Part shown: positions 11,995-60,836 of the stretch, piece after piece
Layout of the letters: each line of letters begins with the position of its first letter
Numbering within the stretch: position 1 is the stretch's first letter
NCBI RefSeq assembly: GCF_900109575.1
Contig: NZ_FOAF01000001.1
Location: 2,389,662-2,453,661, forward strand
Direction: 5' to 3'
Length of the DNA stretch: 64,000 nucleotides
DNA from: Olivibacter domesticus
Lineage (GTDB): Bacteria > Bacteroidota > Bacteroidia > Sphingobacteriales > Sphingobacteriaceae
Program-made: the position numbers and the translations under genes
The notes under the pieces: model-generated
Database searches by the model: none
The model's input: the letters and a program-made list of their open reading frames with translations, nothing else
Told to the model about the DNA's origin: nothing

Positions 11995-12027
11995 AATAAG
12001 CTGTTCAACAATTAATCAACCGTACTA

Positions 12028-37630: not shown

Positions 37631-37646
37631 TGACGCGATTTTATTT

Positions 37647-39725: not shown

Positions 39726-39751
39726 AATTGAGCGTTTATTGGGTTTATATT

Positions 39752-40228: not shown

Positions 40229-40338
40229 AGCAGATTTTATGTATTTAACTATTTCAGCCGTTGGATAATTTTTCGCTGATCGGCTTGTAAGGTTTATATT
40301 AAATTTTATAAGATCGTTCTGCTGAGCCCCAGTTTTAA

Positions 40339-40965: not shown

Positions 40966-40977
40966 TTTCTTCCGTTT

Positions 40978-41367: not shown

Positions 41368-41466
41368 GATAAAATAAATTAAATGTTAAAGTGAATATGA
41401 TGATTGTGGCATTGGAAATGCCTTATTGTCCGAACCTGATCAGGTCGGAGTATAGACAAGAAGGTA

Positions 41467-44202: not shown

Positions 44203-44231
44203 TAAGGTTGTCTCCTTCTGAATCTAATTTT

Positions 44232-44262
44232 AAAAAGCCTGTATACAATCTACGGGCTTTTT
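44232..44262 (+). terminator. Rho-independent terminator of the endonuclease lipoprotein gene
   Basis: AAAAAGCCTGTA pairs with TACGGGCTTTTT (one G-U) around a 7-nt loop, with the final T-tract part of the stem. Placed 30 bp after the stop codon. Confidence 0.85.
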
Positions 44263-44789
44263 ACTTACTCGATAATTCTTCTATTTATAAGCTTCTACGC
44301 TACAAACAAATATAGGTACTGATAACACAAATAGCGATCTATTTTAGCGTACAAACGGATACACCGTTCTTCCCTTTGTAGTCTATCCAGCAAATGATCT
44401 TCGAATTACCTTTACACAAACTTTTCTAGTCTATTTTTCGGTATTTTTAATCAAAATAGGCCACCCTACCTTGAGCCTGCCTAAGCACTACCTTAGCCCT
44501 TCTTTAGTACTAGGAAAAAAATGCGTACTTATTGGTCTATTTTTCGGTTTTTCAATAAGTTTTCAACTGATCTTTTTTCAGCAAACCTATCCCATTTTAC
44601 AGACAAAGTATAACGGCTAACGATAATAACGCCATTGAAGAAAGCCACCGTTTGCATACAAAGTAAGCAAATAACACGGGATATCCAGCATGGTAAACAT
44701 GAAAGAACATCAAATTGTTTAAACGTAAAGATTACATTAAAGTCCACTTTTTTATTGCATAAATGAGATTGTCATCTTAATTTTGTCGC
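44263..44789. other. Gene-free stretch with dispersed repeat
   Basis: 527 bp between the endonuclease terminator and the small metal-efflux protein. It holds one copy of a repeat shared with 62.3 kb (44423-44487) and a shorter partial copy of its core at 44534-44548 (listed separately). An open frame runs through part of it on the plus strand but lacks a start codon and codes for nothing I recognise. Confidence 0.5.
44423..44487. repeat. Dispersed repeat, copy 1
   Basis: About 65 bp beginning TTCTAGTCTATTTTTCGG and ending CCTTGAGCCTGCCTAAG that closely matches 62299-62363. A third, partial copy of the core GGTCTATTTTTCGGT occurs at 44534-44548. It is noncoding and may be a member of a genome-wide repeat family. 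Confidence 0.65.
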
Positions 44790-45167
44790 GTGAAAAGGCT
44801 TTTTCTCTATATAATGCTCATACTGTTGGTCAGTGAAACTACTTCGCTCTACCAATTGATAAAGATTCCCAAGCTTTATGGGCATTTTATGGAACATAAA
44901 GCCCTTAACCCCGAAGTTGGGTTTGTTGATTACCTTTCAATGCATTATTGGGGAGAAGATCTGAATGACGATGATGATGAAAAGGACATGCAGCTGCCAT
45001 TCAAAAAATATGATATCCATACCCCCAGCTTTCTTTTTGTTCCTGCAAATAAAATATTTGCATCCAAAAATCATTCTTGGCCCATAAGATCCAATTTCGG
45101 TCCCGATAAAGCGCAAGTTTATTTCAATCCCGCCCTGGGATCACTTTTTCGTCCTCCAAGAGCTTAA
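44790..45167 (+). CDS. Small exported protein upstream of the CusA-CusC gene
   Basis: A 125-residue protein starting at a GTG, with a short hydrophobic N-terminus (LFLYIMLILLVSETTSLYQL), an acidic stretch (NDDDDEKD) and a C-terminal FNPALGSLFRPPRA. No enzymatic motif. Similar small proteins sit before cusA-type genes in Bacteroidota, so a metal-binding or transport accessory role is likely. It lies 99 bp upstream of the efflux pump gene and is probably cotranscribed. Confidence 0.65.
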   Translation: MKRLFLYIMLILLVSETTSLYQLIKIPKLYGHFMEHKALNPEVGFVDYLSMHYWGEDLNDDDDEKDMQLPFKKYDIHTPSFLFVPANKIFASKNHSWPIRSNFGPDKAQVYFNPALGSLFRPPRA

Positions 45168-45266
45168 ATACTTTTTTTTGATTTGGGGTCTTCATGATCC
45201 TAATTAGCTAGGTGCCATGTCAGCACTGGTAGCTTCAATTTTTATGTATTTATTTCTTAGATTATT

Positions 45267-48200
45267 ATGCTTAATAAGATCATTCAGTTTTCCGTTAGGA
45301 ACAAACTGGCGATCGGGATATTCATGCTGCTATGGGTTGTCTATGGCACCTATGAAGTGACCCAATTGCCGATAGATGCCGTCCCCGATATCACCAATAA
45401 CCAGGTGCAAGTTATAACAACCGCTCCTTCGCTTGGAGCAGAAGATGTAGAACGTTTAATAACATTCCCCATAGAGCAGGCCATCAGCAATGTTCCGGGA
45501 ATTCAGGAAAGCAGGAGCATGTCGCGTTTTGGTCTGTCACTAATAACCATTGTCTTTGAAGATGGCACCGATGTATACTGGGCCCGGCAACAGGTTACTG
45601 AAAGGCTTTCGCAGGTGGAAATTAACGAAAATGCTAATACACCTACACTCGCACCTGTCACTACCGGCCTGGGAGAGATCTATCAATATGTATTAAAACC
45701 GAAGAAAGGATTCGAAGACAAATACTCGCTTGCAGATCTTCGTACTACGCAAGATTGGATGGTACGCAGGCAGCTCCTGGGAACACCCGGTGTGGCCGAC
45801 GTCGCTACATTCGGTGGCGAACTAAAGCAGTATGAAGTCGCCGTAAATCCCTCCCGCTTGAAAGCGTTGAACTTGACGATCAGTGATATTTTCACTGCGC
45901 TCAGCAGAAACAACCAGAATACCGGAGGCGCCTATATCGAAAAAGGACCTTCTGTACTGTATATCAGAAGTGTTGGCCTTGCCGGTTCCATTCCCGACAT
46001 TAATCAGATTGTGATAAAAAATAACCTTGACGGTTCTCCTGTGCTGATCAGCCATGTGGCCGAAGTACGTTTAGGTGCTGCCATACGCTACGGTGCACTC
46101 ACTATGGCCGGAAAAGGTGAACTTGCAGGTGGTATCGTGATGATGCTAAAAGGGGGCAATTCCTCAGATGTAATAAAGAACGTAAAACAACGCATCAATG
46201 AAATCCAGAAAACCTTGCCTGAAGGATTGGAAATCGAACCGTTCTTGGACCGTACGAAAATGGTGAACAATGCCATCGGCACCGTAGAGCATAACCTGCT
46301 TGAAGGGGCTCTGATCGTTGTGTTGGTACTGGTACTATTTCTGGGTAATTTCAGAGCAGGCTTGATTGTAGCCTCGGTTATTCCACTGTCCATGCTCTTT
46401 GCTATTACCATGATGAACACCTTTGGTGTTAGCGGTAACTTAATGAGTTTGGGTGCGCTCGACTTCGGGCTTATTGTGGACGGGGCAGTGATTATCGTGG
46501 AAGCGATTCTGCATCATATGCATTTTTCAAAAAAATATGTTACTGTTGATCGTATTTCCCAAAAAGAAATGGACATGGAAGTGGCCGGTTCTGCTTCGCG
46601 GATGATGAACGCTGCCGTATTCGGACAAATCATTATCCTCATCGTTTACCTGCCAATACTCTCGCTAACGGGTATTGAGGGCAAGATGTTTAAACCAATG
46701 GCTCAGACAGTGGCATTCGCCATACTTGGTGCTTTTATTCTTTCTCTGACCTATGTGCCGATGATCAGTGCTATGTTTATCAATAAAAAAATCTCACATA
46801 AGCCTAATATTTCTGATCGTATTATGACCAGGATTGAAAATGCTTATCATAAAGCCCTAGAAAAGGCACTGCGTATCCGAAAATCTTTAGTACTGATCGC
46901 TTTTCTATTGTTCGGGGTAGCTATTTTTATGTTTACGCGCATGGGAGGTGAATTTATCCCTCAATTGGAAGAAGGCGACTTTGCTGTCGAAACCCGTTTA
47001 CTGGTGGGTACCAACTTAACCACTACTATAAATGCTATAGACCGTATTTCCGGAACGCTGCAATCCAATTATCCTGAAGTGGAAAAGATCGTTTCCCGGA
47101 TAGGAAGTGCGGAAATACCTACAGACCCCATGCCGATAGAAGGTGGCGATATGATTATTGTTCTCAAAGATAAATCGGAATGGACCAGCGCAAAAACATT
47201 TCCGGAACTTGCGGGCAAGATGGCGACAACTGCCCAGGAGGTTATGCCAGGGGTAACAACCGGATTTCAGTATCCCGTCCAGATGCGCTTCAACGAACTG
47301 ATGACAGGGGCAAAACAGGATGTTGTTTGTAAGATTTTCGGAGAGGATCTAGATAAATTAGCAGCTTATGCCGAGCAACTGGGGGACATTGCTAAAACTG
47401 TTGAGGGTACTGCTGATTGGTATGTCGAAAAGGTAACAGGGATGCCGCAAATTGTGATTGATTTCAACCGGAGTGAAATTGCCAAATACGGCCTGAACAT
47501 CGATGATGTGAACCGTACCATCAACGCTGCCTTTGCAGGAGCTGCAGCCGGCAAGATTTATGAAGGAGAGAAAAGTTTTGACCTAGTAGTAAGAGTGGGC
47601 AATGAGGGTAGAAAAAACATAAATGATGTCCAGAATCTTCCTATATCCACTCCCGGTGGTGTTCAGATTCCTTTGTATCAAGTAGCTGATATTCGGGAAA
47701 TAGAAGGTCCCAACCAAATACAGCGAGAAAACACCCGTCGGAGGATCATTGTGGGATTTAATGTTAGAGGAAGGGATGTGCAATCTATTGTCGAAGAACT
47801 GCAGCAAAAAGTAAATGCAAAAATAAAGTTTGAGCCGGGTTATACGATTACCTATGGCGGTACCTTTGAAAACCTGCAGCAGGCAAAAGGACGGTTGAGT
47901 ATTGCTGTTCCGGTAGCCCTACTGCTTATTTTTGTAATGCTGTATTTTGCTTTTTCATCGGTCCGCGAAGGAGCGCTGATCTATACGGCCATCCCGCTTT
48001 CGGCCATAGGTGGTGTGTTCGCACTAGCCTTAAGAGGTATGCCCTTCAGCATCTCTGCGGGGGTGGGCTTCATTGCCCTCTTCGGTGTTGCTGTACTGAA
48101 CGGCATCGTACTTATTTCAGAATTCAACCGGATCAAAAAGGAAGGGTTAATAAATGATCCCTTGCAATTGGTGATGACGGGTACTAGGAACCGCCTCCGC

Positions 48201-49634
48201 CCCGTACTTATGACAGCCGCAGTGGCCTCCCTGGGTTTCTTACCAATGGCACTCAGTAACGGTGCTGGAGCAGAAGTGCAACGACCACTGGCCACGGTGG
48301 TAATTGGGGGCTTAATAACGGCTACCCTGCTTACCTTGTTTGTATTACCCGCACTTTACCTTTTATTTGATGGCAAAAAGAAAATAAAAATCAATAAAAA
48401 TACAGCCATAACAGTGCTTATGTTGTTTACTGCTACTGTAGGTTTTGCGCAAACACCTGAAAAGCCCATTAACCTGAACAGCGCAATCACGATCGCTTTA
48501 AAGAACAATCAACAGGTACAGGGTACCCGGCTGAATGAACAGGCCAATGAACAGTTGCAGCATAGCGGCTTTGACCTAGCGAAGACACAGTTCAGCGCAG
48601 ACTATGGAAAGGTAAACAGTGCAAGCAACGATACCCGATTCGGCGTAAGCCAGACCTTCAGCTTTCCTACCGTCTATACCAACCAGAGCAAAGCGTTGAA
48701 AGCAAACTTCCTGGCTTCACAGGCGCAGACGCGGCTGACCGAACAGGACCTTCGATTCGGTGTACGCCAAATGTTCTATGAATATGTGTCGCTAACCGAA
48801 CGGAAAAAATTATTACTGTATGCCGATAGTATTTACAGACTGTTTGAAAGTAAATCCAACAAGCGATTTGAAACTGGGGCGGCCAACATTCTGGAAAAAA
48901 CGGCAGCGGAATCGCATCGGCAGCAGATCACCAATCAGCTTAACCTGCTTAATAAGGATATGGATATCGCACTAAAACAGTTTAACGTCCTGCTGCAAGA
49001 TACCTTCCAGTATATACCACAAACAACAGCGCCAAAAATCGCAGGGCCTGCATCCTTTGTGGATACAGCAAACTCGCGAGGAACACTACCAGCAATTGAG
49101 CTTGCCCACCAGCAGCAAGAAGCTGCCCATTACCAATGGAGAACGGAAAAGTCCAAGATGTTACCAGAATTTATGATCGGATATAACAATCAAAGTTTGA
49201 TCGGCTCGCAGCAGGTAAACGGCCGGGAGGTGTATTATGAAGGTAAAAATCGGTTCAGCTATCTAAGTGCTGGGATCAGCGTGCCACTGTTCTTCCGCGC
49301 CCAATCTTCGCGGGCCGCGGCAGCCAAGTTGGAGTGGCAGAGCCGTTCGAAGCAGGCTGATTACCTACAGACGCAGATCCAAACCGAACGCATGAACGCC
49401 GTTAGTCAGGTGTCAAAATTTGGGGAAAGTCTCGCATATTACGAATCTCAGGGACTCAAAAATGCGGAAGTGATCATCCGTACCGCAGACCAACAATTCC
49501 AAGAAGGAGAAATCGATTACCTGCAATGGGTTATTCTGGTAGATCAGGCGATAACGATAAGGAATGAGCATATCAATGTAATGAGCAGTTACAATCAGGC
49601 GGTCATCCAATTACAAAAATTAAACAATCAATAA
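45267..49634 (+). CDS. CusA/CzcA heavy-metal RND pump fused to a TolC/CusC-like outer-membrane factor
   Basis: A 1455-residue fusion. Residues 1-1040 are a heavy-metal RND transporter with twelve helices and the CzcA/CusA proton-relay motif DFGLIVDGAVIIVE; periplasmic porter loops lie between. After the last RND helix (LPALYLLFDGKKKI) comes a hydrophobic segment (TAITVLMLFTATVGFA, residues about 1050-1067) that resembles a signal peptide, then a 390-residue outer-membrane efflux protein domain with coiled-coil helices (SAITIALKNNQQVQG). The pump would span the periplasm to export Cu/Ag or other metal with the adaptor encoded next. The fusion is known in Bacteroidota but unusual in other phyla. 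Confidence 0.93.
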   Translation: MLNKIIQFSVRNKLAIGIFMLLWVVYGTYEVTQLPIDAVPDITNNQVQVITTAPSLGAEDVERLITFPIEQAISNVPGIQESRSMSRFGLSLITIVFEDGTDVYWARQQVTERLSQVEINENANTPTLAPVTTGLGEIYQYVLKPKKGFEDKYSLADLRTTQDWMVRRQLLGTPGVADVATFGGELKQYEVAVNPSRLKALNLTISDIFTALSRNNQNTGGAYIEKGPSVLYIRSVGLAGSIPDINQIVIKNNLDGSPVLISHVAEVRLGAAIRYGALTMAGKGELAGGIVMMLKGGNSSDVIKNVKQRINEIQKTLPEGLEIEPFLDRTKMVNNAIGTVEHNLLEGALIVVLVLVLFLGNFRAGLIVASVIPLSMLFAITMMNTFGVSGNLMSLGALDFGLIVDGAVIIVEAILHHMHFSKKYVTVDRISQKEMDMEVAGSASRMMNAAVFGQIIILIVYLPILSLTGIEGKMFKPMAQTVAFAILGAFILSLTYVPMISAMFINKKISHKPNISDRIMTRIENAYHKALEKALRIRKSLVLIAFLLFGVAIFMFTRMGGEFIPQLEEGDFAVETRLLVGTNLTTTINAIDRISGTLQSNYPEVEKIVSRIGSAEIPTDPMPIEGGDMIIVLKDKSEWTSAKTFPELAGKMATTAQEVMPGVTTGFQYPVQMRFNELMTGAKQDVVCKIFGEDLDKLAAYAEQLGDIAKTVEGTADWYVEKVTGMPQIVIDFNRSEIAKYGLNIDDVNRTINAAFAGAAAGKIYEGEKSFDLVVRVGNEGRKNINDVQNLPISTPGGVQIPLYQVADIREIEGPNQIQRENTRRRIIVGFNVRGRDVQSIVEELQQKVNAKIKFEPGYTITYGGTFENLQQAKGRLSIAVPVALLLIFVMLYFAFSSVREGALIYTAIPLSAIGGVFALALRGMPFSISAGVGFIALFGVAVLNGIVLISEFNRIKKEGLINDPLQLVMTGTRNRLRPVLMTAAVASLGFLPMALSNGAGAEVQRPLATVVIGGLITATLLTLFVLPALYLLFDGKKKIKINKNTAITVLMLFTATVGFAQTPEKPINLNSAITIALKNNQQVQGTRLNEQANEQLQHSGFDLAKTQFSADYGKVNSASNDTRFGVSQTFSFPTVYTNQSKALKANFLASQAQTRLTEQDLRFGVRQMFYEYVSLTERKKLLLYADSIYRLFESKSNKRFETGAANILEKTAAESHRQQITNQLNLLNKDMDIALKQFNVLLQDTFQYIPQTTAPKIAGPASFVDTANSRGTLPAIELAHQQQEAAHYQWRTEKSKMLPEFMIGYNNQSLIGSQQVNGREVYYEGKNRFSYLSAGISVPLFFRAQSSRAAAAKLEWQSRSKQADYLQTQIQTERMNAVSQVSKFGESLAYYESQGLKNAEVIIRTADQQFQEGEIDYLQWVILVDQAITIRNEHINVMSSYNQAVIQLQKLNNQ

Positions 49635-49643
49635 AATACTTAA

Positions 49644-50789
49644 ATGAAACTATTCATATTCAGCTGCATCGGGTTTGTATTCCTAGCATCATGCGGCGGC
49701 AAAGAAACGGCAAAAACAACTGATACTGAAAAAACTGATCCTGTACAGACACCGCAGATGGTGTCGTTCAGTCCTCAGCAGCTAAAAAACGTCGGTATAG
49801 AAACCGGCAGCGCACAACTTGAATCCATAAGCGGCACATTGACCCTTCAGGGGAGCATCGATGTACCGCCCCAAAATACGGTAAGCTTAAGTTTCCCTTT
49901 AGGAGGCTACCTTAAATCGACGGACATGTTGCCCGGCATGAGGGTAAAAAAAGGACAAGTATTAGCGGTATTGGAAGACATGCAGTTCGTACAGCTGCAG
50001 CAAGATTATTTAACTGCAAAAGCAAAATTTACATTAGCCCAAACAGAGTTTGATCGCCAGCGCGAACTGAATGCAAGCAAGGCCAGCAGCGATAAGGTAT
50101 TTCAGCAGGCAAAGGCAGAAATGGAGACCCAACAAATACTGATGAATGCACTGGCCCAAAAGTTGCAGCTAATTGGTATAAATCCGGCACATCTTGATGC
50201 TGCAAACATATCGAAGGCGGTGCGTGTTGTTTCCCCTATTAATGGGTTTATATCAAAGGTAAACGTAAATGTGGGAAAATATACCGCTCCAACAGATATG
50301 TTATTTGAATTAGTTGATCCAACAGACATCCATCTAGCACTTAATGTATTCGAAAAGGATCTTGGTAAGATTTCTATTGGGCAAAAGGTTATAGCTTATA
50401 GCAATAATGAACCTGATAAACGGTTTGAAGGGGAAATCATTTTAATCAATAGAACAATCGATCAGGATCGGATGGCTCAGATCCATTGTCACTTTAAAAA
50501 ATATGACGCTTCCCTGGTTCCCGGTATGTTTATGAACGGTGAGATATCCGTGAATAATGTGCAGGCATTGACTGTACCGGAAGATGCGGTTGTACGCTGG
50601 GAGAACAAGTATTATGTTTTTTCGGATAACGGAAACGGAAAGTTTGAAATGACAGAAGTAAAGCCTGGTGTACTCAGCCATGGAAAGCAGCAGATTGAAG
50701 GAAAAGGGATCGATACGGCAACAAAACTAGTTATCAAAAATGCCTATACCTTACTGATGAAGATAAAAAATACCGAGGAAGAGGGATAG
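49644..50789 (+). CDS. CusB/CzcB-like periplasmic adaptor lipoprotein
   Basis: A 381-residue membrane-fusion protein. The lipobox Cys is at residue 17 (FLASC). Barrel-sandwich halves flank a long helical hairpin (FVQLQQDYLTAKAKFTLAQTEFDRQ and KAEMETQQILMNALAQK), followed by a beta-barrel domain (DPTDIHLALNVFEKDL). It links the RND pump to the outer-membrane factor and passes metal to it. It begins 9 bp after the pump gene. A strong terminator follows. Confidence 0.9.
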   Translation: MKLFIFSCIGFVFLASCGGKETAKTTDTEKTDPVQTPQMVSFSPQQLKNVGIETGSAQLESISGTLTLQGSIDVPPQNTVSLSFPLGGYLKSTDMLPGMRVKKGQVLAVLEDMQFVQLQQDYLTAKAKFTLAQTEFDRQRELNASKASSDKVFQQAKAEMETQQILMNALAQKLQLIGINPAHLDAANISKAVRVVSPINGFISKVNVNVGKYTAPTDMLFELVDPTDIHLALNVFEKDLGKISIGQKVIAYSNNEPDKRFEGEIILINRTIDQDRMAQIHCHFKKYDASLVPGMFMNGEISVNNVQALTVPEDAVVRWENKYYVFSDNGNGKFEMTEVKPGVLSHGKQQIEGKGIDTATKLVIKNAYTLLMKIKNTEEEG

Positions 50790-51037: not shown

Positions 51038-51541
51038 TTATTTCTTAAAGGTTGATAGCAATTGGTCCAATTGCTGAAAATCTATGGTCATCCCTTCTTT
51101 AAAGCCCATCTCAATCTCCTTTTCGAGGTCGGCAAACGTATCGTAGGTCAGTAACATATCCACTAGGACTTTATCACCTTCCGGTATAAAGTTGTTCTCC
51201 CACAAATTTTGGGGAAGCGCAGGATTTATCGTGCCGTTTTTATCACTGAATCCACCTTTTGAGGCAAATGATTTTTCTTTTACAATAGAAATGAAATTGG
51301 TTCTGCTATAGTGCTTTTCGCCTTCAGGGCTTACCATTGCGTAGAGCCAAAAGCCACCTTCCCGAAAATCCATTGTCTTGGTTTCGGCTCTCCAGGGTTG
51401 CGGTCCCCACCATTGGTCAAGTAATTCGGGGGTTGTCCACGCTTGCCAAACCAATTCAAGACTGGTATCAAATTCACGCTTTATGTTAATGGTTTTGTTT
51501 TCCTTGTTGACAGTGAAGTCAAATAATAAATTGCTATTCAT
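51038..51541 (-). CDS. SRPBCC (AHSA1-like) protein, copy A
   Basis: A 167-residue START-like/AHSA1 domain protein. It opens MNSNLLFDFTVNKENKTI and carries the family pattern EFDTSLELVWQAWTTPELLDQWWGPQP and FREGGFWLYAMVSPEG. These cup-shaped domains bind hydrophobic ligands, or have no known ligand. Its first 35 residues are nearly identical to those of the SRPBCC-VOC protein and of a decayed copy between them, so this is the downstream survivor of a tandem triplication. No function can be assigned. Confidence 0.85.
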   Translation of the reverse strand: MNSNLLFDFTVNKENKTINIKREFDTSLELVWQAWTTPELLDQWWGPQPWRAETKTMDFREGGFWLYAMVSPEGEKHYSRTNFISIVKEKSFASKGGFSDKNGTINPALPQNLWENNFIPEGDKVLVDMLLTYDTFADLEKEIEMGFKEGMTIDFQQLDQLLSTFKK

Positions 51542-51542
51542 T

Positions 51543-51700
51543 TTAGTTGTTTTTTAGGGTTAGTAATAATTCGTCCAAGTTATTAAGATATGAGGAGAAG
51601 CCAGCCAAACCAATTCAAGGCTGGCATCAAATTCACGCTTTATGTGAATGGTCTTGTTTTCCTTGTTTACGGAAAAATCAAATAAAAGAGTACTGTTCAT
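51543..51700 (-). pseudogene. Decayed third SRPBCC copy with internal deletion
   Basis: On the minus strand an ATG at 51700 opens MNSTLLFDFSVNKENKTI and continues through the family segment EFDASLELVWLA, nearly identical to both neighbours. The middle of the domain (about 110 residues) is missing and the frame then shifts to one reading SSYLNNLDELLLTLKNN and a TAA at 51543, which looks like a SRPBCC C-terminus. A large internal deletion thus joined the two ends out of frame. Confidence 0.75.
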
Positions 51701-51712
51701 GACTTCCATTCT

Positions 51713-52693
51713 TTAATTGTTCAAGTTTTTTTCGTTTTGAAAGTTTATCATCCAATTAATTCCGTATTTGTCTGAAAATTCTCCGAAGTAAGCACCGAAA
51801 AACATATCTGCCATTGGCATTGTGACATTGCCTCCGGCCGAAAGTTCAGTAAACAATCTGTCGGCTTCTTCTCTTGTTTCGGGTTCTATGCAGATGTGCA
51901 TATTGTTCCCTCTCGCAAGCGTAAAGCCCATTTCTTTGGGTGCGTCTGTTCCCATTAAAATGTAATTCCCGGTTATCGGCAACTCAACGTGCAATACCAT
52001 TTTCTTTATTTCATCTGCAACAGGCGGGTGACCTGCTTCAGCTGGAATGTCGCCAAAACGTTCAATGCCCTTTCCTACAAATTCTGTTGCGAAAACTGAT
52101 TTGTAAAACAAAAAGGCTTCCTCTGTTTTTCCGTCAAAATTCAAGTAGGTGCAAACTCTCGCTTTATTGCTTGTCTTGTTTTGTTTACGTAGTTTGAATT
52201 TTGCTTCAATGTATTGGTCAAGATTTTGCATAGCCATTGTAAAGCCTTCTTTGAAGCCAACTTCAATTACTTTTTCAAGTGCTTCCAAACTTTCGTATTG
52301 AATAGTAATGTTTACACTTGTTATTTCTGCGTTCTCGCTAAATACATTTGTCCAAAATGAATTAGGAAATTTTTCGCTTACGTTTCCGTGTTCATCACAA
52401 AAATTATCGGTATATGAATAGCTTTTTTGATGTTCTATTTTTTTATAGTCGGCCTTACACCAATGTATTTCGTCTTTCGGACTAACCATACAATACAACC
52501 ACGTTCCTCCCTCCCGAAAATCCATAGACTTTGTTTTGGTTTTATATGGCTTCGGTGCCCACCATTGGTCAAGAATTTCGGGGTTTATCCACGCTTCCCA
52601 GACCAACTCAAGGGCTGCGGCAAATTCACGCTTTATGTTTACAGTGTTATTTTCTTTGTTTACCGTAAAATCAAATTTTAAGTTGCTATTCAT
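51713..52693 (-). CDS. SRPBCC (AHSA1-like) domain fused to a VOC/PhnB-like domain
   Basis: A 326-residue fusion. Residues 1-165 are an AHSA1-type SRPBCC domain (MNSNLKFDFTVNKENNTV, ALELVWEAWINPEILDQWW). Residues about 180-326 are a PhnB/3-demethylubiquinone-like VOC domain (VCTYLNFDGKTEEAFLFYKSVF and FSDKYGINWMINF). Each fold is commonly separate; here they are joined by a short basic linker. It overlaps the ArsR gene by 4 bp (ATGA), so the regulator likely controls it. Function of such proteins is unknown, possibly ligand binding or glyoxalase-like chemistry. Confidence 0.85.
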   Translation of the reverse strand: MNSNLKFDFTVNKENNTVNIKREFAAALELVWEAWINPEILDQWWAPKPYKTKTKSMDFREGGTWLYCMVSPKDEIHWCKADYKKIEHQKSYSYTDNFCDEHGNVSEKFPNSFWTNVFSENAEITSVNITIQYESLEALEKVIEVGFKEGFTMAMQNLDQYIEAKFKLRKQNKTSNKARVCTYLNFDGKTEEAFLFYKSVFATEFVGKGIERFGDIPAEAGHPPVADEIKKMVLHVELPITGNYILMGTDAPKEMGFTLARGNNMHICIEPETREEADRLFTELSAGGNVTMPMADMFFGAYFGEFSDKYGINWMINFQNEKNLNN

Positions 52694-53010
52694 TTTTTCT
52701 TGTTTTTAATTGTTGCCAATAGCTTATCAAGGTTATCAAAGCGGTCCTCCCAGATTTTTCTAAACTGTTCCAGCCATTTGTCTATTTCTTTCATTTTATC
52801 AATCTCAAGCTGGTAATAGATTTCCCTGCCTCTTTGTTCCTGTTTTATGAGTTCGCATTCAGTCAGGATGCGCAGATGTTTGGAAACCGACTGTCGAGTT
52901 GTGTCGAAATGCTCAGCAATGGCATTGGGTGTCATGGCCTGTATTGCAATTAACGTAATGATTGCCCTTCTTGTCGGGTCGGCTATGGCCTGGAAAATAT
53001 CCCTTCTCAT
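52690..53010 (-). CDS. ArsR family winged-helix regulator
   Basis: Best start is the ATG at 53010 (MRRDIFQAIADPTRRAIITL), giving a 106-residue protein; a longer frame to 53076 adds a poor N-terminus. The motif AEHFDTTRQSVSKHLRILTECELIKQEQRG is the ArsR recognition helix region. No metal-binding CxC pair is visible, and AHSA1-associated ArsR proteins usually lack it. It is the first gene of an ArsR-SRPBCC unit and probably autoregulates it. Confidence 0.85.
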   Translation of the reverse strand: MRRDIFQAIADPTRRAIITLIAIQAMTPNAIAEHFDTTRQSVSKHLRILTECELIKQEQRGREIYYQLEIDKMKEIDKWLEQFRKIWEDRFDNLDKLLATIKNKKK

Positions 53011-53553
53011 TCTTTTGTTCTTTAATTTATGAAACCGATCGGTTGCAAATATATGTGCAACTTTTCGGTTTCGCAAATTTTATTTGACTTTTTTAGTTTG
53101 TATAATGTTCAGATGCAGTGCGGTGACGCGTCTAATCGCCTCTACTGGTACTATGGTTCAATGGCCTCAAAATGCCGGAAGCATCGTATTGATTCTTCCT
53201 ACACAAGAAAGAGTCGTCATAGCTGTGATGGCCAATAGTAAATACTTAAGCTTATATTTTAGCTTTTGTATTACCTTTATTAGTGCTAAACGTTGGAAGA
53301 AAAACAGATCTGACATATAAAATCTATTTTTATGATTGATAGCACAGGCATCTTACCACAAAAGACAGACACCATCATTTCAATGATGATTTTTCAAGAA
53401 TAGCAAAAGAAATGCTAAACTTAATCAAGAATAAATAAGTCTCTTTGGGAAAAGCCTATAATGAAAAGATAATTCAAAAACTCTTCAAAATTGATTCTTT
53501 ATCATTTGTATAATGAATTGTCAATAAAAAGGAAAATTCTGATAATTATTTCA
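53011..53553. other. Gene-poor stretch with a probable gene remnant
   Basis: 543 bp between the ArsR gene and the sulfatase gene. It holds the possible serine-hydrolase remnant on the plus strand (listed separately). The rest looks noncoding; I see no strong repeat or promoter. Confidence 0.5.
53103..53438 (+). pseudogene. Possible remnant of a beta-lactamase-family serine hydrolase
   Basis: The plus strand reads GTMVQWPQNAGSIVLILPTQERVV in one frame, then VMANSKYLSL, which resembles the end of the beta-lactamase domain of serine hydrolases (small-residue loop, LILP, VVAVMAN). Further on, in another frame, SRIAKEMLNLIKNK with a stop at 53438 resembles a C-terminal helix. There is no intact start, and the frame is broken at least once. 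The assignment is tentative. Confidence 0.3.
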
Positions 53554-55503
53554 CTATTGCCTCATCTTTCCAGCTTTGAACAAGTCGTATGCTCCCTGAT
53601 AATAGGTAATGGCAGCCTCCTCTCCTTTTTTATCAACTGGAATTGCTTGCTGCACCCCGTTGTCTTTTAGAAGTCTATAAGAACGGATATTCCGGATCGG
53701 ACTCAAGCTCGTCAATGTATCGCCTTCTAAGAAACCCAAAATCTGGTAAGTACTGATAAAGCTTCTGGGTTTATAGTTGGTATCGAATACATTTTTACCA
53801 AAAAATTTACTCCGATAATTCCAGTGCAATAACCCAAACAGCGTTGGATAAAGGTCTATCTGTGAGCAAAGAGCTGAAACCGGCTGTGGGACAGTACCTG
53901 GCAGATTATAAATTAAAGCAGGGATGTGATATTTATTTACAGTTATTTCTTCCTTACCTGCACTGCTTGCACAATGATCTGCAATAAATATAAAAATAGT
54001 ATTCCTAAACCACGCTTTCTGACGTGCCTTGGCCATAAACTGGCCAATGGCATAGTCGGTATATTTGACAGCCCCTTCTCTTCCCGAACCCGATGGTATA
54101 TCAATTTTATTTTCCGGATAGGTATAGGGCCTATGGTTAGAGGTGCTCATGATAAAATGGTAAAAATGTCGCCCCCATTTATACTCCTGATCTGCCTGTC
54201 TAATGACTGCATCGAAAAGATCTTCGTCACATATACCCCAAGCGTTCTGAAAATGCACGTTATTTTCTGGAATAATGGTCCGTTCGGTAACGACTTCACC
54301 ATCGGGAATAATACTCCTTCCATGGTCTACTATATCAAAACCGTTGTGGCTGAAATAGCTATTCATGTTATCGAAATAGCCATCCCCGCCATAAAAGAAA
54401 GTACAATAATACCCCTTTCGCCTAAATACGGTCCCAACATTGAACAGTCCTTCATTATCTTTTCTCCTCACGATACTATTACCTGGTGTGGGTGGAACTG
54501 ATAACGTCAATGCTTCCATTCCACGTACTGTCCTAGTACCAGTTGCGTACATATCTGTGAACAGCATGCTGCTGTCGGCCAGACGGTCCATCATCGGTGT
54601 CAGGTTCTTCTTACTACCGAAATGCTCCATGAATGCTGCGCTCATACTTTCGATGGTCACCATAATTACATTCGGTTTGTACGCAGTTTCCTCGTTCAAA
54701 ATCTGCCTCTCAATACCGGAGTCATTATCAATAAAAATGCTGTTTGATTCTTTAATATCTGTTCTCAGTGTAGCGAGCACTTCACGAGAATCATGACAGC
54801 TATAAAAGTCCACATATGAAAGCTCATTATTTCTGAAAGCATCCACAAAGGAATAAATTCCGGCTTTCGATAATTCCTGCTGATAGCGGTTCGTTCCTTT
54901 TTCCGCCCAGCGATTCGAAATAAAAAAGATATATACTGCAGTGACAAGTAGAAGACACAAGCTATGGAACAAACGTACTATGAAAGGAGTATCAGCCCGG
55001 AAGCTAATCGCAAAAATTGCAAGCCTAGAGAAGAGAAAAACCAAGAGAACGGTAATAGCTAGCACCCCCCCTATCAGCCAAGGTAACGAATAGGATTCAT
55101 TGATATTATGCAAAACCTCATAGGTGTAGATAAGATAGTCCACCGCAATGAAGTTAAACCGACTTTCGAATTCGTTCCAAAAGGTAAATTCAGCAAAAAA
55201 AGAAAAGATACTGATACATACACAGCATGCAAAAACACTAATGGTAATGATTCTATTGGCGAAGCTGCTGTTCCATGTCTTTGAAATTGACAGTAAGTAG
55301 ATAGTATAAGGCAGAACAAAAAATAAAGCTACCCCGAGATCGAAGACTATACCTTTGCCATAAATAGCAAATATATCGGCAAAAGATAGATCTGCTTCCG
55401 GAAATGACTGTATCAATAAAGCAGTCCTTACCAGAAAAGAAAGAAAAAGGAAAAGGATAATGAAACCGTACAGTATACTGTACCTACTACAGAAATGTTT
55501 CAT
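53554..55503 (-). CDS. LTA-synthase-like alkaline-phosphatase-superfamily (sulfatase-fold) membrane protein
   Basis: Starts best at the ATG at 55503 (MKHFCSRYSILYG), 649 residues; upstream in-frame codons overlap the PAP2 gene. Five N-terminal helices (about 1-215) anchor a periplasmic sulfatase-fold domain with VIMVTIESMSAAFMEHFG, YATGTRTVRGMEAL (nucleophile Thr), GGDGYFDNMNSYF and IFIADHCASS. The group transfers phosphoglycerol or phosphoethanolamine, or hydrolyses such esters, on envelope glycolipids. It is last in the operon, 10 bp after the PAP2 gene, so modification of lipid A or another envelope lipid is likely. Confidence 0.88.
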   Translation of the reverse strand: MKHFCSRYSILYGFIILFLFLSFLVRTALLIQSFPEADLSFADIFAIYGKGIVFDLGVALFFVLPYTIYLLSISKTWNSSFANRIITISVFACCVCISIFSFFAEFTFWNEFESRFNFIAVDYLIYTYEVLHNINESYSLPWLIGGVLAITVLLVFLFSRLAIFAISFRADTPFIVRLFHSLCLLLVTAVYIFFISNRWAEKGTNRYQQELSKAGIYSFVDAFRNNELSYVDFYSCHDSREVLATLRTDIKESNSIFIDNDSGIERQILNEETAYKPNVIMVTIESMSAAFMEHFGSKKNLTPMMDRLADSSMLFTDMYATGTRTVRGMEALTLSVPPTPGNSIVRRKDNEGLFNVGTVFRRKGYYCTFFYGGDGYFDNMNSYFSHNGFDIVDHGRSIIPDGEVVTERTIIPENNVHFQNAWGICDEDLFDAVIRQADQEYKWGRHFYHFIMSTSNHRPYTYPENKIDIPSGSGREGAVKYTDYAIGQFMAKARQKAWFRNTIFIFIADHCASSAGKEEITVNKYHIPALIYNLPGTVPQPVSALCSQIDLYPTLFGLLHWNYRSKFFGKNVFDTNYKPRSFISTYQILGFLEGDTLTSLSPIRNIRSYRLLKDNGVQQAIPVDKKGEEAAITYYQGAYDLFKAGKMRQ

Positions 55504-55513
55504 AAATAATAAA

Positions 55514-56263
55514 TCAATTGTAATCAGCCGAGTGAGATGACCTTTTCTTTCCCCATTTAAAGCGGTGGGTCCAATAGGCAACTTTCATGGTCAAAATTCC
55601 AATCCCCGCTCCAAACAGCACATCACTTATATAATGTCTATTATTGGCCATACGCATGCCACCTACGCAGGTGGCGGCACTGTATGCTACATAAGGCATC
55701 CATTTATAAGTAGATCCGTACTCTTCGGCTAAAAAAGTGGCAGCAGCAAAGGCCTGTGCAGTATGCCCTGAAGGAAATGAGTTATAGGTACTCCCATCAG
55801 GTCGTAAATTATGGAATGATGATTTGGCCGTAAAGACAATAGCAGACATCATCAGCTCACCTTTGAAAAGTATGGCTGAGCGATTGACAAAATCATGTTT
55901 TGCCTTATAACCATAGGCATCCATGGTGTACACAGCAGCTATTGGTGCATATTGCAGGTAATTGTCAATGCCCGTATGGAAGTTGGCAAAATGTTCATTG
56001 CGTTCTTCCACGATTTCCATTTTCAATGATTCAGGTCCGTTCGAATTGGCCAAAAAACCGCTCAGCATAAGACTTATGGGTGCATATAGCTGCCCACCAC
56101 GAAAGTTTAAAGGCTGTTGTTCGTAAAAGGATTTCCCTACCGGAAGCATTTCTATGCGATGTTCCTCCACCGCGTATTGTCTCCATTGTGCCGACGTTTC
56201 AGATACACCAAATACCGACACACATAATATCAATTTTATAAGATTCCACTGTTTCAGAAACAT
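55514..56263 (-). CDS. PAP2 family lipid phosphatase
   Basis: Starts at the ATG at 56263, giving a signal peptide (MFLKQWNLIKLILCVSVFGV). PAP2 motifs are visible: KSSFHNLRPDG, FPSGHTAQAF and NNRHYISDVLFG (the first motif is divergent, with K-x6-RP). PAP2 phosphatases remove phosphate from lipids such as undecaprenyl diphosphate, phosphatidic acid or lipid A. It precedes the sulfatase-fold gene by 10 bp and is preceded by the direct-repeat promoter element. Which lipid it acts on is unknown. Confidence 0.87.
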   Translation of the reverse strand: MFLKQWNLIKLILCVSVFGVSETSAQWRQYAVEEHRIEMLPVGKSFYEQQPLNFRGGQLYAPISLMLSGFLANSNGPESLKMEIVEERNEHFANFHTGIDNYLQYAPIAAVYTMDAYGYKAKHDFVNRSAILFKGELMMSAIVFTAKSSFHNLRPDGSTYNSFPSGHTAQAFAAATFLAEEYGSTYKWMPYVAYSAATCVGGMRMANNRHYISDVLFGAGIGILTMKVAYWTHRFKWGKKRSSHSADYN

Positions 56264-56285: not shown

Positions 56286-56318
56286 GCAAAGCTCCATACC
56301 AATTCTGTAGAAATTCTG
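56286..56318 (-). promoter_or_regulatory. Putative response-regulator site and promoter before the PAP2 gene
   Basis: On the minus strand CAGAATT-TCTA-CAGAATT (56318-56301) is a direct repeat of a 7-bp half-site at an 11-bp step, as for OmpR-type regulators. After 9 bp comes CTTTGC (56291-56286), which carries the TTTG of a Bacteroidota -7 element. The same arrangement precedes the receptor gene at 60554-60586. The predicted leader is about 15 nt. Confidence 0.7.
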
Positions 56319-56320
56319 GT

Positions 56321-57361
56321 TTAGGTGAAGTGCACGTAAAAATAATGCTTTCTGTTTTCAAAAGCATAACGTACCGACCAGCCCAAGCTGGTGCAGATTT
56401 CCTGAACGATAGCCAGTCCTAGCCCTGTTCCACCTCCGCTTGTAGAAGCAAAGCGTTTAAAGAGTTGCGTTGTATCCAGCTCTTCTTTGCCCGAGTTGGC
56501 AATGATAATTCCTGTAGCATCCAAGTGGATCAATAATTCGCCACCGTTCCAATTGTGCCGATAAGCATTGAAAAGTAGGTTCTGCAATAAAACCTCTACC
56601 AGTACTTTGTTCCCTGTAATCGATATCCCGTCCGTTATATTGGTCTCAAGGATTATACTTTTGTCGTTTATATGCTCCCGGAGTAAGTCAATAATATCCT
56701 TTAACAACATGCTAAGATCAATCATTTCCTGCTGCTCAAACTGCTTATTGTCAATCTTTGCCAGCATCAACAGGTTTTTGTTGACGCGGGAGGTACGTGC
56801 CACAGCAGCACTCAGCTCCCGTATCAGTTGGTATTGATGCGGGGAGAGGTTCTTTTCCTGAAGAAAAAGATCGAGCTTCGATTGCATAATGGCCAGTGGT
56901 GTCTGTAATTCATGGCTGGCATTTTCTGTAAATTTCTTTTGCTGACTGTAGGCCGATATGGAACTCGTTATCAATTTATCGAGGTTCGCATTCAGCTCTG
57001 CAAATTCCGCAATATCAGTAGGCTCAAAATCAACGGTTTGGTGCCGATTCAGATCAAATCCTTTGATTTTGGCAAGACTATCATAAAAAGGCCGCCAGAG
57101 TTTACGCGAGAGCCTACGGTTCAACAATACCAGGCCAACCAGCAGTAAACTGGAAAAAAGCACCGTCAGGATAGTTACCATAGCTATGATCAAATAGCTG
57201 TCTTCACGTCCAGCCTTCTCCGTCAGGATGATGTTATGTTCGTTCAGTTCATATTGTAAGAGCGTGCTGAATATAAAGTAATATACCGGTATGCTGCAGC
57301 AAAGTACAATAGCAGCATACACCAGAAGCTTTTTTAGCGATCTGTTCAATAGTCTGTTCAT
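56321..57361 (-). CDS. Sensor histidine kinase
   Basis: A 346-residue kinase from the ATG at 57361, which overlaps the regulator's stop by 4 bp (ATGA). Two helices (about 12-36 and 55-80) flank a very short periplasmic part of about 20 residues, so it probably senses within or near the membrane. His150 in FTENASHELQTPL is the phosphorylation site; the ATPase has NLLFNAYRHNWNGG, a short G1 (IIIANSGKEELD) and GGGTGLGLAIVQ. It should phosphorylate the regulator encoded immediately upstream. Confidence 0.93.
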   Translation of the reverse strand: MNRLLNRSLKKLLVYAAIVLCCSIPVYYFIFSTLLQYELNEHNIILTEKAGREDSYLIIAMVTILTVLFSSLLLVGLVLLNRRLSRKLWRPFYDSLAKIKGFDLNRHQTVDFEPTDIAEFAELNANLDKLITSSISAYSQQKKFTENASHELQTPLAIMQSKLDLFLQEKNLSPHQYQLIRELSAAVARTSRVNKNLLMLAKIDNKQFEQQEMIDLSMLLKDIIDLLREHINDKSIILETNITDGISITGNKVLVEVLLQNLLFNAYRHNWNGGELLIHLDATGIIIANSGKEELDTTQLFKRFASTSGGGTGLGLAIVQEICTSLGWSVRYAFENRKHYFYVHFT

Positions 57362-58032
57362 ACCTCCCATTTATAACCTGCTCCATAAATCGTTTTCAGG
57401 TAGTTATCTGCGCCAAATTCACTTAACTTCTTTTTAAGATTCTTTATATGCCCATAGATAAAATCATAACTATCAAGCATATCTGCAAAATCGCCCGAAA
57501 GGTGTTCAGCTATCGCATTTTTGGAAACCACTTTATTCTTATTGCTAATAAAATATACCAGCAGATCAAACTCCCTACGTGTCAGTACCACCTCATGTCC
57601 GTTTACGGCAACCGTTCTGGAAGGTACGTCGATTGTTATCTCTCCCTGATGGATAATGTTCTGACTTCCTAATTGACGCCGGCGGATAACTGCATATATC
57701 CTGGCCGCAAGCTCCGAAAGATGAAATGGTTTAGACAAATAATCATCAGCGCCGATGGTAAGTCCTTTCAGACGATCCTCCAATGAATCCTTGGCGGAGA
57801 CAATAATTACACCGTCCTCCTTACCTCTACGTTTTAGCTCCTCTAGGATCTTTAATCCATTACCATCCGGTAGCATCAGGTCCAGAACAATGCAATCGTA
57901 ACTGTATTGGCTCATTTTATCCATTCCTTCGTTATATGATGCAGCTAGCTCACAAAGATATTGTTCACCCGATAGGTATTCAGTTATGGAATTTACCAAT
58001 TCCCGTTCGTCTTCGATAATGAGAATCTTCAT
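57358..58032 (-). CDS. OmpR/PhoB family response regulator
   Basis: From the ATG at 58032 (MKILIIEDERELV) a 224-residue regulator; upstream codons are not needed. Receiver Asp51 in VLDLMLPDG, with Asp8 and Lys101 (YLSKPF); a winged-helix domain follows (LTRREFDLLVYFI, GHIKNLKKKL, YGAGYKWEV). It is cotranscribed with the sensor kinase and, 86 bp upstream, the outer-membrane receptor. The direct-repeat sites before the receptor and PAP2 genes have the spacing this class recognises. Confidence 0.93.
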   Translation of the reverse strand: MKILIIEDERELVNSITEYLSGEQYLCELAASYNEGMDKMSQYSYDCIVLDLMLPDGNGLKILEELKRRGKEDGVIIVSAKDSLEDRLKGLTIGADDYLSKPFHLSELAARIYAVIRRRQLGSQNIIHQGEITIDVPSRTVAVNGHEVVLTRREFDLLVYFISNKNKVVSKNAIAEHLSGDFADMLDSYDFIYGHIKNLKKKLSEFGADNYLKTIYGAGYKWEV

Positions 58033-58118
58033 ATTAGCGATGGGTGAATCTAATTTCCATATATTCAAAGATAGTGATCTGATTTGAGTCTTTCATTCCG
58101 CAAATAGTTGCGCTTTGA

Positions 58119-60527
58119 TTAAAATTTGTAGCTATACCCCACACGAACAACCTGGGTTTCATAATAATCTCGACTTAAATAGTTAAAACCCGCTCCTTTC
58201 ACTTCCCTTTTTATCCGCAATGTATTAGCTATATCCGTCGCATTCAGGAATATTTCACCTTTACCTTGTTGTATCGGTTTTTTAAGTCCTCCATCAATAG
58301 AAAACCGGGCATATATCTTCCCTTGAGGCACAATATCTGGTGCCAAGTAGATCGCCGTAAACTGCAGATCGAATTGACGTGGCAGATGAAACATTGTATT
58401 TAGTTTCACATTACCCGAGAGCATATCCTGACGATCAGCGGTAAATACGTTTTCAACAGGATATTTATTAACCACGGTGAAGGCATTGATAACGTTTCTA
58501 TAACCGTTGAGGTTCAGATTGAAGGTTGCCCATTTAGCGGCGTCCTGACTGAACACCAGCTCAACACCTGTATTGTAGCTTCTTCCCGCATTCTGGAAGA
58601 TATTATAGATCAGGTTGCTTCCCGGTACGGTGCTGGCAATCCTGGTAATGGTTGCATCCATGCTTTTATGATAGACCGCGGAATAAACCGATCCGCTGTT
58701 CCAGCTTCTGTTGTATCCCAGTTCGTAGGAGTCGGTAAACTGGGGGCGCAGGCCGGGGTTACCCACTTTAATGATCTCGGCGTCATCATATTTAGGAAAA
58801 ATACGGATATCTACCTCGTTTGGTCGATCAACACGGCGGTTGTAAAAAACAGACAACTTATTCCGTTGGTTAAACTTATAGCCCAAACGCAGATTAGGAA
58901 AAGGCCGCATGTAATCATATCCGTCGCTCCTATAGGTAGGATGGTAAGGGTTCACATTATATTGCACTCGTACGTATTCCATACGCAGCCCTGCTTCTAT
59001 TTCGAAATATCTATTTTCAAAAATATAATTTCCGTAAAGTGCAGGTATCGTTTCACGGTAATCTGCCCATCCACCGGCAGTGCTATCAAGCGGTGAGTTC
59101 AATCCTGGCAAAAAAGTCATGTCGGTTGGGATATCCCTCCTCCTGAATTTCAGTCCTACCTCAATCCGCCCGGATCGAAGGGGTTGCACATAATCGAGCG
59201 TAAAATCGGTAACATGTTCATCTGAAATTAGTTTAAAGGCATCCTGACCGGTAAAGGAGGGCATGGTGTTAGTAAAGAAATATTTCTCATCTTCCCGGTG
59301 AAACGTATAGTTCAGTCCCACATTCAACAGTCTACCTGGTTGTTTGAACCGATGCTGCCAAGTTGTAAAAACCGTTACCGTAGTTTTCAACTCATCTTCT
59401 AAAAATTGCCAAAGGCGAAGCTGTTCTGATAGATCCCCGTTAAAGAAAGGTTCATCGCCACGGTCGATGATCTTTTCACTGCTGAAAAGCCCTGAAACGG
59501 TCAGCGTATTATTTCTATTTATATACCAATCAAGCCCCCCCTTTCCGGTGACCACATTGGTATTCCGGTTGCGCTTAGTCTGCTGCCTTACCATATCCCC
59601 ATTATCATAAACCCTATCTACAAACTCATTTTTGTTCAAGGTGTGGGTGTACAAGTTATCCCCTTGTAGAAATACATTGATGTTCTTTTTACGGTAATTC
59701 AGCGATAAGGAGGGATTTATTTTGGGCGTATTGGTATATTGCGGTCGGATGCCCGGAAGATTCTCCTTTTTGATCCAAAGTGCTCCCAATCCAGTTGATA
59801 GTCCAACCTTTCCGTTAAGTCCTTCCTGCTTTTCTTTCTTGTAGATGATGTTCACGATCCCTGCATTACCGTTGGCATCAAACTTTGCAGAGGGATTATT
59901 GATCACCTCTATCCGCTCAACGGCAGACGCTGGAATATTATCTAGCCCCGACTGGCCGCCGAAGCCTGTCAGGGCTGTTTGCTTACCGTCAATCAATACC
60001 ACAACCTTATCGCTTCCGCGCAGTTGCACTTTCCCATCATCTCCCATCGTGATACCGGGAAGGTTACGCATCGCCTCCAACAAAGAACCACCTGCCTGCG
60101 TAATGTTATCAGTTACCTTAAATACTTTACGGTCCATCTGCATCGAAATAGCATCCTGCCTATCGGTAACCGTCACTTCCTCCAACTGTCTTGTATCGGG
60201 GATTAAGGTCACAGTTCCCAGATCAAGAAATTCGCTTAATTGACCTACAGCTTCATTTTGAGTTTTTGACTCGTAACCAATTAAACTGATTTCCAATATA
60301 TAATTCCCGCTGGCTACGTCTGATAAAGTAAAAGTACCGTCTTCCTTGGTAATCGTGCCCGTAACAAATCTGCTTTCTTCTTCAGTTTTTAGTGTTATGT
60401 TGGCAAATGCCAGACCTGTTTGGGTAACAGCATCTATAACATTGCCAGAAAGGGTAACTTTTTTTTCTTGACTATATAATTTGATTGCGAATGCTAAATA
60501 GATTCCAAACAGGATAATCGACTTCAT
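58119..60527 (-). CDS. TonB-dependent receptor-like outer-membrane protein (CarboxypepD_reg plus plug plus barrel)
   Basis: An 802-residue outer-membrane protein from the ATG at 60527 (MKSIILFGIYLAFAIKLYSQ, signal peptide). A carboxypeptidase-regulatory-like domain (TLSGNVIDAVTQTGLAFANI) precedes a plug domain (LRNLPGITMGDDGKVQLRGSDKVVVLIDGK) and an OMP_b-brl_3-type barrel ending VRVGYSYKF. This group is often near two-component systems and its ligands are mostly unknown. It starts an operon with the regulator, kinase, PAP2 and sulfatase-fold genes, and the putative regulator site lies 27 bp before its start. Confidence 0.88.
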   Translation of the reverse strand: MKSIILFGIYLAFAIKLYSQEKKVTLSGNVIDAVTQTGLAFANITLKTEEESRFVTGTITKEDGTFTLSDVASGNYILEISLIGYESKTQNEAVGQLSEFLDLGTVTLIPDTRQLEEVTVTDRQDAISMQMDRKVFKVTDNITQAGGSLLEAMRNLPGITMGDDGKVQLRGSDKVVVLIDGKQTALTGFGGQSGLDNIPASAVERIEVINNPSAKFDANGNAGIVNIIYKKEKQEGLNGKVGLSTGLGALWIKKENLPGIRPQYTNTPKINPSLSLNYRKKNINVFLQGDNLYTHTLNKNEFVDRVYDNGDMVRQQTKRNRNTNVVTGKGGLDWYINRNNTLTVSGLFSSEKIIDRGDEPFFNGDLSEQLRLWQFLEDELKTTVTVFTTWQHRFKQPGRLLNVGLNYTFHREDEKYFFTNTMPSFTGQDAFKLISDEHVTDFTLDYVQPLRSGRIEVGLKFRRRDIPTDMTFLPGLNSPLDSTAGGWADYRETIPALYGNYIFENRYFEIEAGLRMEYVRVQYNVNPYHPTYRSDGYDYMRPFPNLRLGYKFNQRNKLSVFYNRRVDRPNEVDIRIFPKYDDAEIIKVGNPGLRPQFTDSYELGYNRSWNSGSVYSAVYHKSMDATITRIASTVPGSNLIYNIFQNAGRSYNTGVELVFSQDAAKWATFNLNLNGYRNVINAFTVVNKYPVENVFTADRQDMLSGNVKLNTMFHLPRQFDLQFTAIYLAPDIVPQGKIYARFSIDGGLKKPIQQGKGEIFLNATDIANTLRIKREVKGAGFNYLSRDYYETQVVRVGYSYKF

Positions 60528-60836
60528 AAAATGGAAGTTTAGTACGTCTCTCAGCAAAGGTGTAGATGGAATCTGTAGAAATTCTGATCTCTAGTTGCGG
60601 CATCTCTTGATATCATTAAAGGCTAGGATTTTTCTCCCGCATTTGGAACAGATACCAGTGTTTTTCTTAATCAATGGGGCCGCGATGAAGGCCTTAGGTT
60701 GATTGTACGGTTAGAAGAAAGCTTGCGCATTACCCGCGTTCAGGTGGCATCAGAGCAGCTCACTTCCACATTGAAAAACTTGAAGTGGCTTTGTTTATAG
60801 TCTACGAGATGAGTAACATGTGTTTTATATTTTATG
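60528..60836. other. Region upstream of the receptor gene
   Basis: 309 bp that hold the receptor promoter element (listed separately). A plus-strand open frame of about 56 codons near 60,630-60,800 has no start codon and matches nothing I recognise. Otherwise no gene is visible. Confidence 0.5.
60554..60586 (-). promoter_or_regulatory. Putative response-regulator site and promoter before the receptor gene
   Basis: On the minus strand CAGAATT-TCTA-CAGATTC (60586-60569), a direct repeat at 11-bp step with two mismatches in the second half-site, then 9 bp, then CTTTGC (60559-60554). Base order and spacing equal those at 56286-56318. The receptor ATG is 27 bp further on. Confidence 0.7.

Follow-up and report, generated by a model that had tools for sequence, protein, structure and literature searches.

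In a 64,000-nucleotide stretch of the Olivibacter domesticus genome (contig NZ_FOAF01000001.1, positions 2,389,662 to 2,453,661; hereafter the window), two minus-strand sites flank the genes of a two-component system, and we propose that they are operators of the OmpR-type response regulator encoded between them. Judged from its sequence context, the regulator probably binds the direct repeat in each site, substitutes for the −33 promoter contacts, and activates both its own operon and a second operon encoding a PAP2-superfamily phosphatase and a sulfatase-fold protein. The sequence of the repeat, its position, and its spacing recur across genera, next to similar neighbor genes.

An earlier note on this DNA had described both sites as CAGAATT-TCTA-CAGAATT followed after 9 bp by CTTTGC. 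Site 1 has exactly this sequence, but in site 2 the second half-site reads CAGATTC, two positions off (Table 1). Both locations given there, upstream of the receptor gene and between the kinase and PAP2 genes, were borne out. Operator 1 starts 2 bp past the kinase stop codon, upstream of the PAP2 ATG (56263), and operator 2 lies upstream of the receptor ATG (60527), ahead of the receptor, regulator, and kinase genes. A domain search of the window proteins likewise returned the gene content as stated (receptor, regulator, kinase, PAP2, and sulfatase-fold). Directly before the window's regulator gene there is no separate repeat (best score 8/14), so transcription of the regulator and kinase genes probably starts at the receptor promoter.

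Table 1. Candidate regulatory elements and module genes in the window
Feature	Position	Strand	Details
Site 1	56286-56318	minus	CAGAATT-TCTA-CAGAATT, 9 bp, CTTTGC
Operator 1 (candidate)	56301..56318	minus	half-sites 56312-56318 and 56301-56307; perfect repeat
Putative −7 box of site 1, GAGCTTTG	56287..56294	minus	aligned to the consensus of relatives
Site 2	60554-60586	minus	CAGAATT-TCTA-CAGATTC, 9 bp, CTTTGC
Operator 2 (candidate)	60569..60586	minus	half-sites 60580-60586 and 60569-60575; second is CAGATTC
Putative −7 box of site 2, CACCTTTG	60555..60562	minus	aligned to the consensus of relatives; box placing −12 to −5 after PMC9723704 (source available in part)
TonB-dependent outer-membrane receptor	58119..60527	minus	CarboxypepD_reg, Plug, OMP_b-brl_3
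OmpR/PhoB-type response regulator	57358..58032	minus	PF00072 and PF00486 above gathering scores
Sensor histidine kinase, NCBIfam PorY family	56321..57370	minus	NF052314
PAP2-superfamily phosphatase	55514..56263	minus	signal-like N-terminal segment
Sulfatase-fold membrane protein	53554..55503	minus	second gene after operator 1; phosphoglycerol-transferase-like

The pair is unusual for the window and for the genome. With at most three mismatches, the composite pattern matched the window only at the two sites, and two such matches were seen in 0/100 dinucleotide shuffles (mean 0.01); the repeat alone, also with three mismatches allowed, was less unusual, giving two matches in 2/100 shuffles. Within two mismatches of CAGAATTTCTACAGAATT, the 6.78-Mb genome contains only the two sites. 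At exactly three mismatches, the repeat occurs at 17 more places, compared with 9 in total for the backward control. A genome search with the full motif, which the earlier note had proposed with an eye to random occurrence, gave 18 composite matches against 9 in the backward control. The 16 besides the window sites all stand at exactly three mismatches; two of them border a paralogous two-component system, and of the remaining 14, 10 fall within open frames. A bigger regulon in this genome was rejected, as only those 2 of the 16 extra matches precede plausible targets, and in neither case is a perfect TTTG present 10 bp after the repeat (gap 10).

The evidence that carries the proposal comes from relatives of the regulator. 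From at least 80 loci encoding such relatives, the 49 nearest in Bacteroidota (L020-L067 and L074) were used. In a test free of any consensus, a 9-bp self-repeat (at least 8/9) with period 11 was present upstream of the regulator in 16/49 loci; the remaining periods between 9 and 23 each gave 0-4. CAGAATT occurring twice (at least 11/14) was found upstream of the regulator at period 11 in 22/49 loci, and in at most 8 at any other period from 8 to 23. The spacing to the promoter is equally particular. A search of 51 loci, coding regions included, gave 174 such repeats; TTTG starts 10 bp past the repeat in 26 of them and 9 bp past it in 8, with 0-3 at other gaps. Repeats at periods 9, 10, 12, and 13 have TTTG in no more than 5 cases at any gap, and none of the 69 sites found with a reversed half-site has TTTG at gap 9 or 10.

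The motif was refined using sites picked on the repeat alone (at least 10/14) and located either ahead of the regulator or beyond the kinase, which yielded 52 sites in 47 loci (30 upstream and 22 downstream). Their aligned consensus is TTCARAATT-NN-TTCARAATT followed by TAnnTTTG; the T-rich two bases ahead of each CA[GA] emerged from the alignment though absent from the query. TTTG is at gap 10 in 24/52 sites and at each other gap in 1-2, and the full TAnnTTTG is present in 8/52, at a single gap only. In several loci the site starts 7-15 bp into the stretch beginning at the end of the kinase match. In L022, where the genes run regulator, kinase, receptor, a 12/14 repeat precedes the regulator, with no TTTG at gap 10, and the best score ahead of the receptor is 10. 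When repeat and TTTG were combined into a composite score out of 18, 12/47 loci reached at least 12 on both sides and 25/47 reached at least 13 on one side. At a threshold of 13, the shifted period 18 gave 11/47 upstream and 12/45 downstream, compared with 14 and 19 for period 11; at 14, the counts were 6 and 6 compared with 11 and 15. Because a half-site plus TTTG alone already scores 11/18, shifting the period is a lax control for the composite, and weight is therefore placed on the repeat-only tests of period and gap. Paired sites within a locus show a weak similarity to each other (13.9 vs 13.0 of 20 bp when permuted; 184/10000 permutations as high; 14 loci).

Genome scans that made no use of the regulator gene also recovered the motif. 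The strict form, with TTTG at gap 10, gave 5 sites in 4/296 genomes of the phylum (control 0); a looser form gave 5 sites in 4/149 genomes of the class (control 0), and another looser scan gave 10 sites in 8/150 genomes of one family (control 3). Pooled, the scans comprise 17 distinct sites, 12 of which precede a gene of the kinds present in the module or a PepSY-like gene: a regulator (L140, L149, L151, and L152, all by reading the translation), PAP2 (L137 and L148, by Pfam), a sulfatase-fold gene (L138, by Pfam), a TonB receptor (L147 by Pfam, L157 by reading the translation), or a PepSY-like gene (L145 and L146 by Pfam, L154 by reading the translation). One further site (L139) precedes a P-loop gene that follows a kinase and PAP2, and four (L136, L150, L155, and L156) precede none of the expected genes. 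As a spacing control, the pattern one base shorter (gap 9) gave 4 sites in 2/149 genomes (control 0). None is directly before a module gene, although about 400 bp beyond L144 a frame reads like a receptor start. Three of the four (L142, L143, and L144, near 1501) are near-identical gap-9 repeats in one genome, perhaps copies of a repeated element rather than promoters. The cross-genome comparison, with 12/17 sites before the predicted kinds of gene, favors what the earlier note had suggested, namely OmpR-type direct-repeat operators controlling a small regulon of receptor, regulator, kinase, PAP2, and sulfatase-fold genes. Direct repeats with a step of about 10-11 bp near the promoter, the criterion for an OmpR/PhoB regulator, were found here as a sequence pattern together with its conservation.

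The motif is not private to the window system. The regulator combines a receiver domain with a winged-helix Trans_reg_C domain, whose recognition-helix region reads YDFIYGHIKNL, and 4 of the 15 regulators listed for the same genome have this helix type (DFIY in the window regulator, DFVY in L104, DFIY in L105, and EFMY in L106). Repeats scoring 12/14 are located upstream of L104 and L105 (51% identity). The paralogous L105 system (L160:3960-6675) has the same layout, with a repeat, regulator, kinase, second repeat, and, by reading, a PepSY-like gene; neither repeat is followed at gap 10 by a perfect TTTG. The helices of the 47 nearer loci are mostly DF[IV]Y, with NFVY in L023, DFLY in L027, and HFVY in L055, and four unread. 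On sequence comparison, the motif appears to belong to a regulator subfamily spread through the phylum. We consider a wider statement somewhat likely: that the DF[IV]Y-helix OmpR-type subfamily of Bacteroidota reads one code, TTCARAATT-NN-TTCARAATT set 10 bp before TTTG, in which half-site 1 replaces the −33 element, and that it connects PorY-type kinases with envelope genes of the PAP2, sulfatase-fold transferase, TonB receptor, and PepSY-like kinds.

These paralogues raise a possible, though not favored, arrangement in which regulators of the same subfamily also bind the window sites and the module is cross-controlled in a shared network. L104 and L105 would be suited to this by their helix type and their 12/14 repeats, as would the second repeat of the L105 system, before its PepSY-like gene. 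The module is patchy among the genomes searched: the receptor (E up to 1e-100) was found in 3/60 genomes including its own and in 0/4 congeners (although one was identified by reading in a family member not included in that draw, L157), and the sulfatase-fold protein in 2/5 genomes of the genus including its own, at 47% in the other. This distribution suggests gain by transfer or repeated loss; if the module was acquired, its new host may already have encoded regulators of this kind. Against cross-control, no other place in the genome is as close a match to the shared sequence as the window sites, and the slightly greater likeness of site pairs within a locus hints at local matching.

The genes behind the sites bear on a second alternative, which we regard as rather doubtful: that the system is chiefly a metal-response switch instead of an envelope-charge switch, with the receptor taking up or sensing a metal complex. 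The window does encode a multicopper oxidase and a P-type ATPase, and the kinase has a score with heavy-metal kinases, though below cut-off (82.5 against 292.55). Neither the oxidase nor the ATPase gene has a copy of the motif in the window, however, and most genes behind sites in other genomes encode PAP2, sulfatase-fold, or PepSY-like proteins, receptors, or regulators.

Whether the regulator activates or represses turns on where the repeat sits relative to the promoter. In the part of PMC9723704 available, the sigma-A boxes of Flavobacterium psychrophilum are placed at −12 to −5. With TAnnTTTG set at these positions, half-site 1 occupies −38 to −30 and half-site 2 occupies −27 to −19. It is consequently half-site 1, not half-site 2, that takes the place of the −33 element, contrary to the earlier note, which had assigned the second half-site to −33. 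The same alignment predicts transcription starts near 56282 for site 1 and near 60550 for site 2, leaving leaders of 19 nt to the ATG at 56263 and 23 nt to the ATG at 60527. Upstream of the repeat no alignment column exceeds 0.24 bits, and the consensus has no TTG at −33; the lack of a recognizable −33 element is attributed to half-site 1 sitting there, and its position makes an activator that replaces the −33 contacts the most likely role. A repressor, bound over −38 to −19 to block RNA polymerase and permitting expression upon release, seems improbable to us. The repeat does overlap the promoter core, which is also a repressor location, and autoregulatory sites alone fit both modes equally, but a promoter without TTG at −33 and without conserved columns upstream looks weak unless an activator is present.

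Under the activator reading, a phosphorylated regulator dimer would bind the 11-bp-step repeat TTCARAATT-NN-TTCARAATT at −38 to −19. Site 2 would then drive the receptor, regulator, and kinase genes, resulting in positive autoregulation, and site 1 would drive the PAP2 and sulfatase-fold transferase genes. Envelope stress would be the presumptive signal, and the likely outcome would be remodeling of lipid A or other envelope phosphates, the putative substrates, by a logic like that of PmrA/BasR. It is hardly credible that the two sites are alike by mere chance, or because they descend from one promoter segment that has no regulatory role: only two copies exist in the window and the repeat alone can arise twice in shuffled sequence, but the composite pair did not, and the fixed period and spacing recur in other genera, so chance similarity was rejected.

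Several observations weigh against the operator proposal. Within the window, both −7 boxes have the TTTG and the A of TAnnTTTG but not the T of TA. Among the 47 nearer loci, 22 reach 11/14 upstream of the regulator, which is under half (reversed control, 1/47). The record at target genes is mixed, with at least 11/14 before 2/8 receptor orthologues (at least 60% identity), 3/7 PAP2 genes, and 5/6 sulfatase-fold genes; another two receptors have scores of 9-10 and TTTG at gap 10. The congener sulfatase-fold gene (L164) has no repeat of at least 11 before it. In the scan of one family, 3/10 sites lack an expected gene, equal to the control count of 3, and the L137 site is letter-identical to that of the seeded locus L029, such that L137 is possibly from the same species and may not be independent. 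Among regulators of the same genome, the EFMY paralogue L106 scores only 10, and the highest of the other 11, the unrelated L111, scores 11 with no TTTG at gap 10. As for the helix, it speaks for the proposal that none of 33 more distant loci (L066-L099 without L074) reaches 11/14 (reversed control, 2/33) and that none of their read helices is DF[IV]Y; as these loci are nearly all from other phyla, however, the link between helix and motif is confounded with lineage and serves as a lead only. The helix is also unread in several rows among both the nearer and the distant loci.

The proteins of the module have a putative envelope function. Gene starts in Table 1 are the first fitting ATG; the mechanical list of open reading frames uses an earlier TTG for several (56302 for PAP2, 60557 for the receptor). 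Receptors of a similar kind stand beside relatives of this two-component system. The kinase scores 360.6 against the NF052314 cut-off of 350, aligned from model position 127 only, and 4/4 further kinases tested also pass. A hydropathy count puts about 26 residues in the loop that separates its two membrane segments, where most relatives have about 100; the loops of L022 and L026 are likewise short. The PAP2 protein contains K-x6-RP, PSGH, and R-x5-H-x3-D, which we take to be the PAP2 signature. Its identification as the lipid A phosphatase LpxE was rejected (26.7 against an NCBIfam equivalog cut-off of 177 bits), and a solved LpxE and a PgpB-type enzyme match it equally weakly (E 0.0065 and 0.0069). 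For the sulfatase-fold protein, LtaS (37.3 against 970 bits), OpgB (33.9 against 574), and phosphoglycerol transferase I (71.3 against 572) were rejected; it falls below the cut-off of all named families, and its best solved relative is the uncharacterized VP1736.

Elsewhere in the window, the stretch at 35168-50789, which adjoins the module, contains the genes of the multicopper oxidase and the P-type ATPase, followed by a frame of 1455 residues and one resembling an efflux adaptor (both by reading only). At 51038-53076, two adjacent proteins have similar N-terminal starts (the first by reading only) and are found beside an ArsR-type helix-turn-helix protein; the second combines AHSA1 with a 3-demethylubiquinone methyltransferase-like domain. 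An IucA/IucC siderophore-type synthesis gene, with a TonB receptor nearby, is located at 8336-14415.

Among the closest known systems is the PmrA/BasR-PmrB/BasS regulon, which is controlled through a direct-repeat box and includes EptA and the PAP2 protein YbjG. Both systems have an OmpR-type regulator, a direct repeat with an 11-bp step, and a sulfatase-fold transferase and a PAP2 protein among their targets, and BasR ranks third among the solved relatives of the window regulator. Membership in PmrAB itself was rejected, with the regulator at 165.2 against the PmrA cut-off of 330 and the kinase at 79.8 against 314 bits for PmrB; the top NCBIfam score of the regulator is instead CtrA (169.1 against 350). 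The window system also differs in its half-site, in its Bacteroidota −33/−7 promoter, and in its inclusion of a TonB receptor. The parallel, by analogy, appears to be one of logic.

Two other systems offer further comparison. The kinase passes the family cut-off of PorY, known from the Porphyromonas gingivalis PorY-PorX-SigP cascade (PMC4800418, available in part), but it is paired with a neighboring OmpR-type regulator that has a promoter repeat. PorXY signaling acts via PorX and a type IX secretion regulon, and the genes near the window kinase are envelope genes. DbfQRS and related PepSY-two-component modules, as described in the available part of PMC12714742, resemble it in that PepSY-like genes carry the same repeat elsewhere and adjoin the paralogous system of this genome. 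Unlike those modules, the window module has no PepSY-like gene that we could see, and PepSY_like (PF11396) is a separate Pfam model; the phrase "direct repeat" is absent from that paper. Among the matches listed in a literature search, titles and the starts of abstracts held no description of the motif in Bacteroidota; most subscription journals lie outside this search, which does not show that the motif is unpublished. We rate the window system as a new variant of OmpR-type direct-repeat regulation.

The action of response regulators at the unusual −33/−7 promoters of Bacteroidota is little described in the searchable literature. An operator that is conserved and keeps a preferred distance from the −7 box provides a direct, testable model of such action, along with a search pattern for the regulons of a large two-component family in the phylum. 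Judging from its targets, the system may be the counterpart in logic of the envelope response governed by PmrAB. If the proposal of one code is true, it would make the regulons of many uncharacterized two-component systems readable from sequence.

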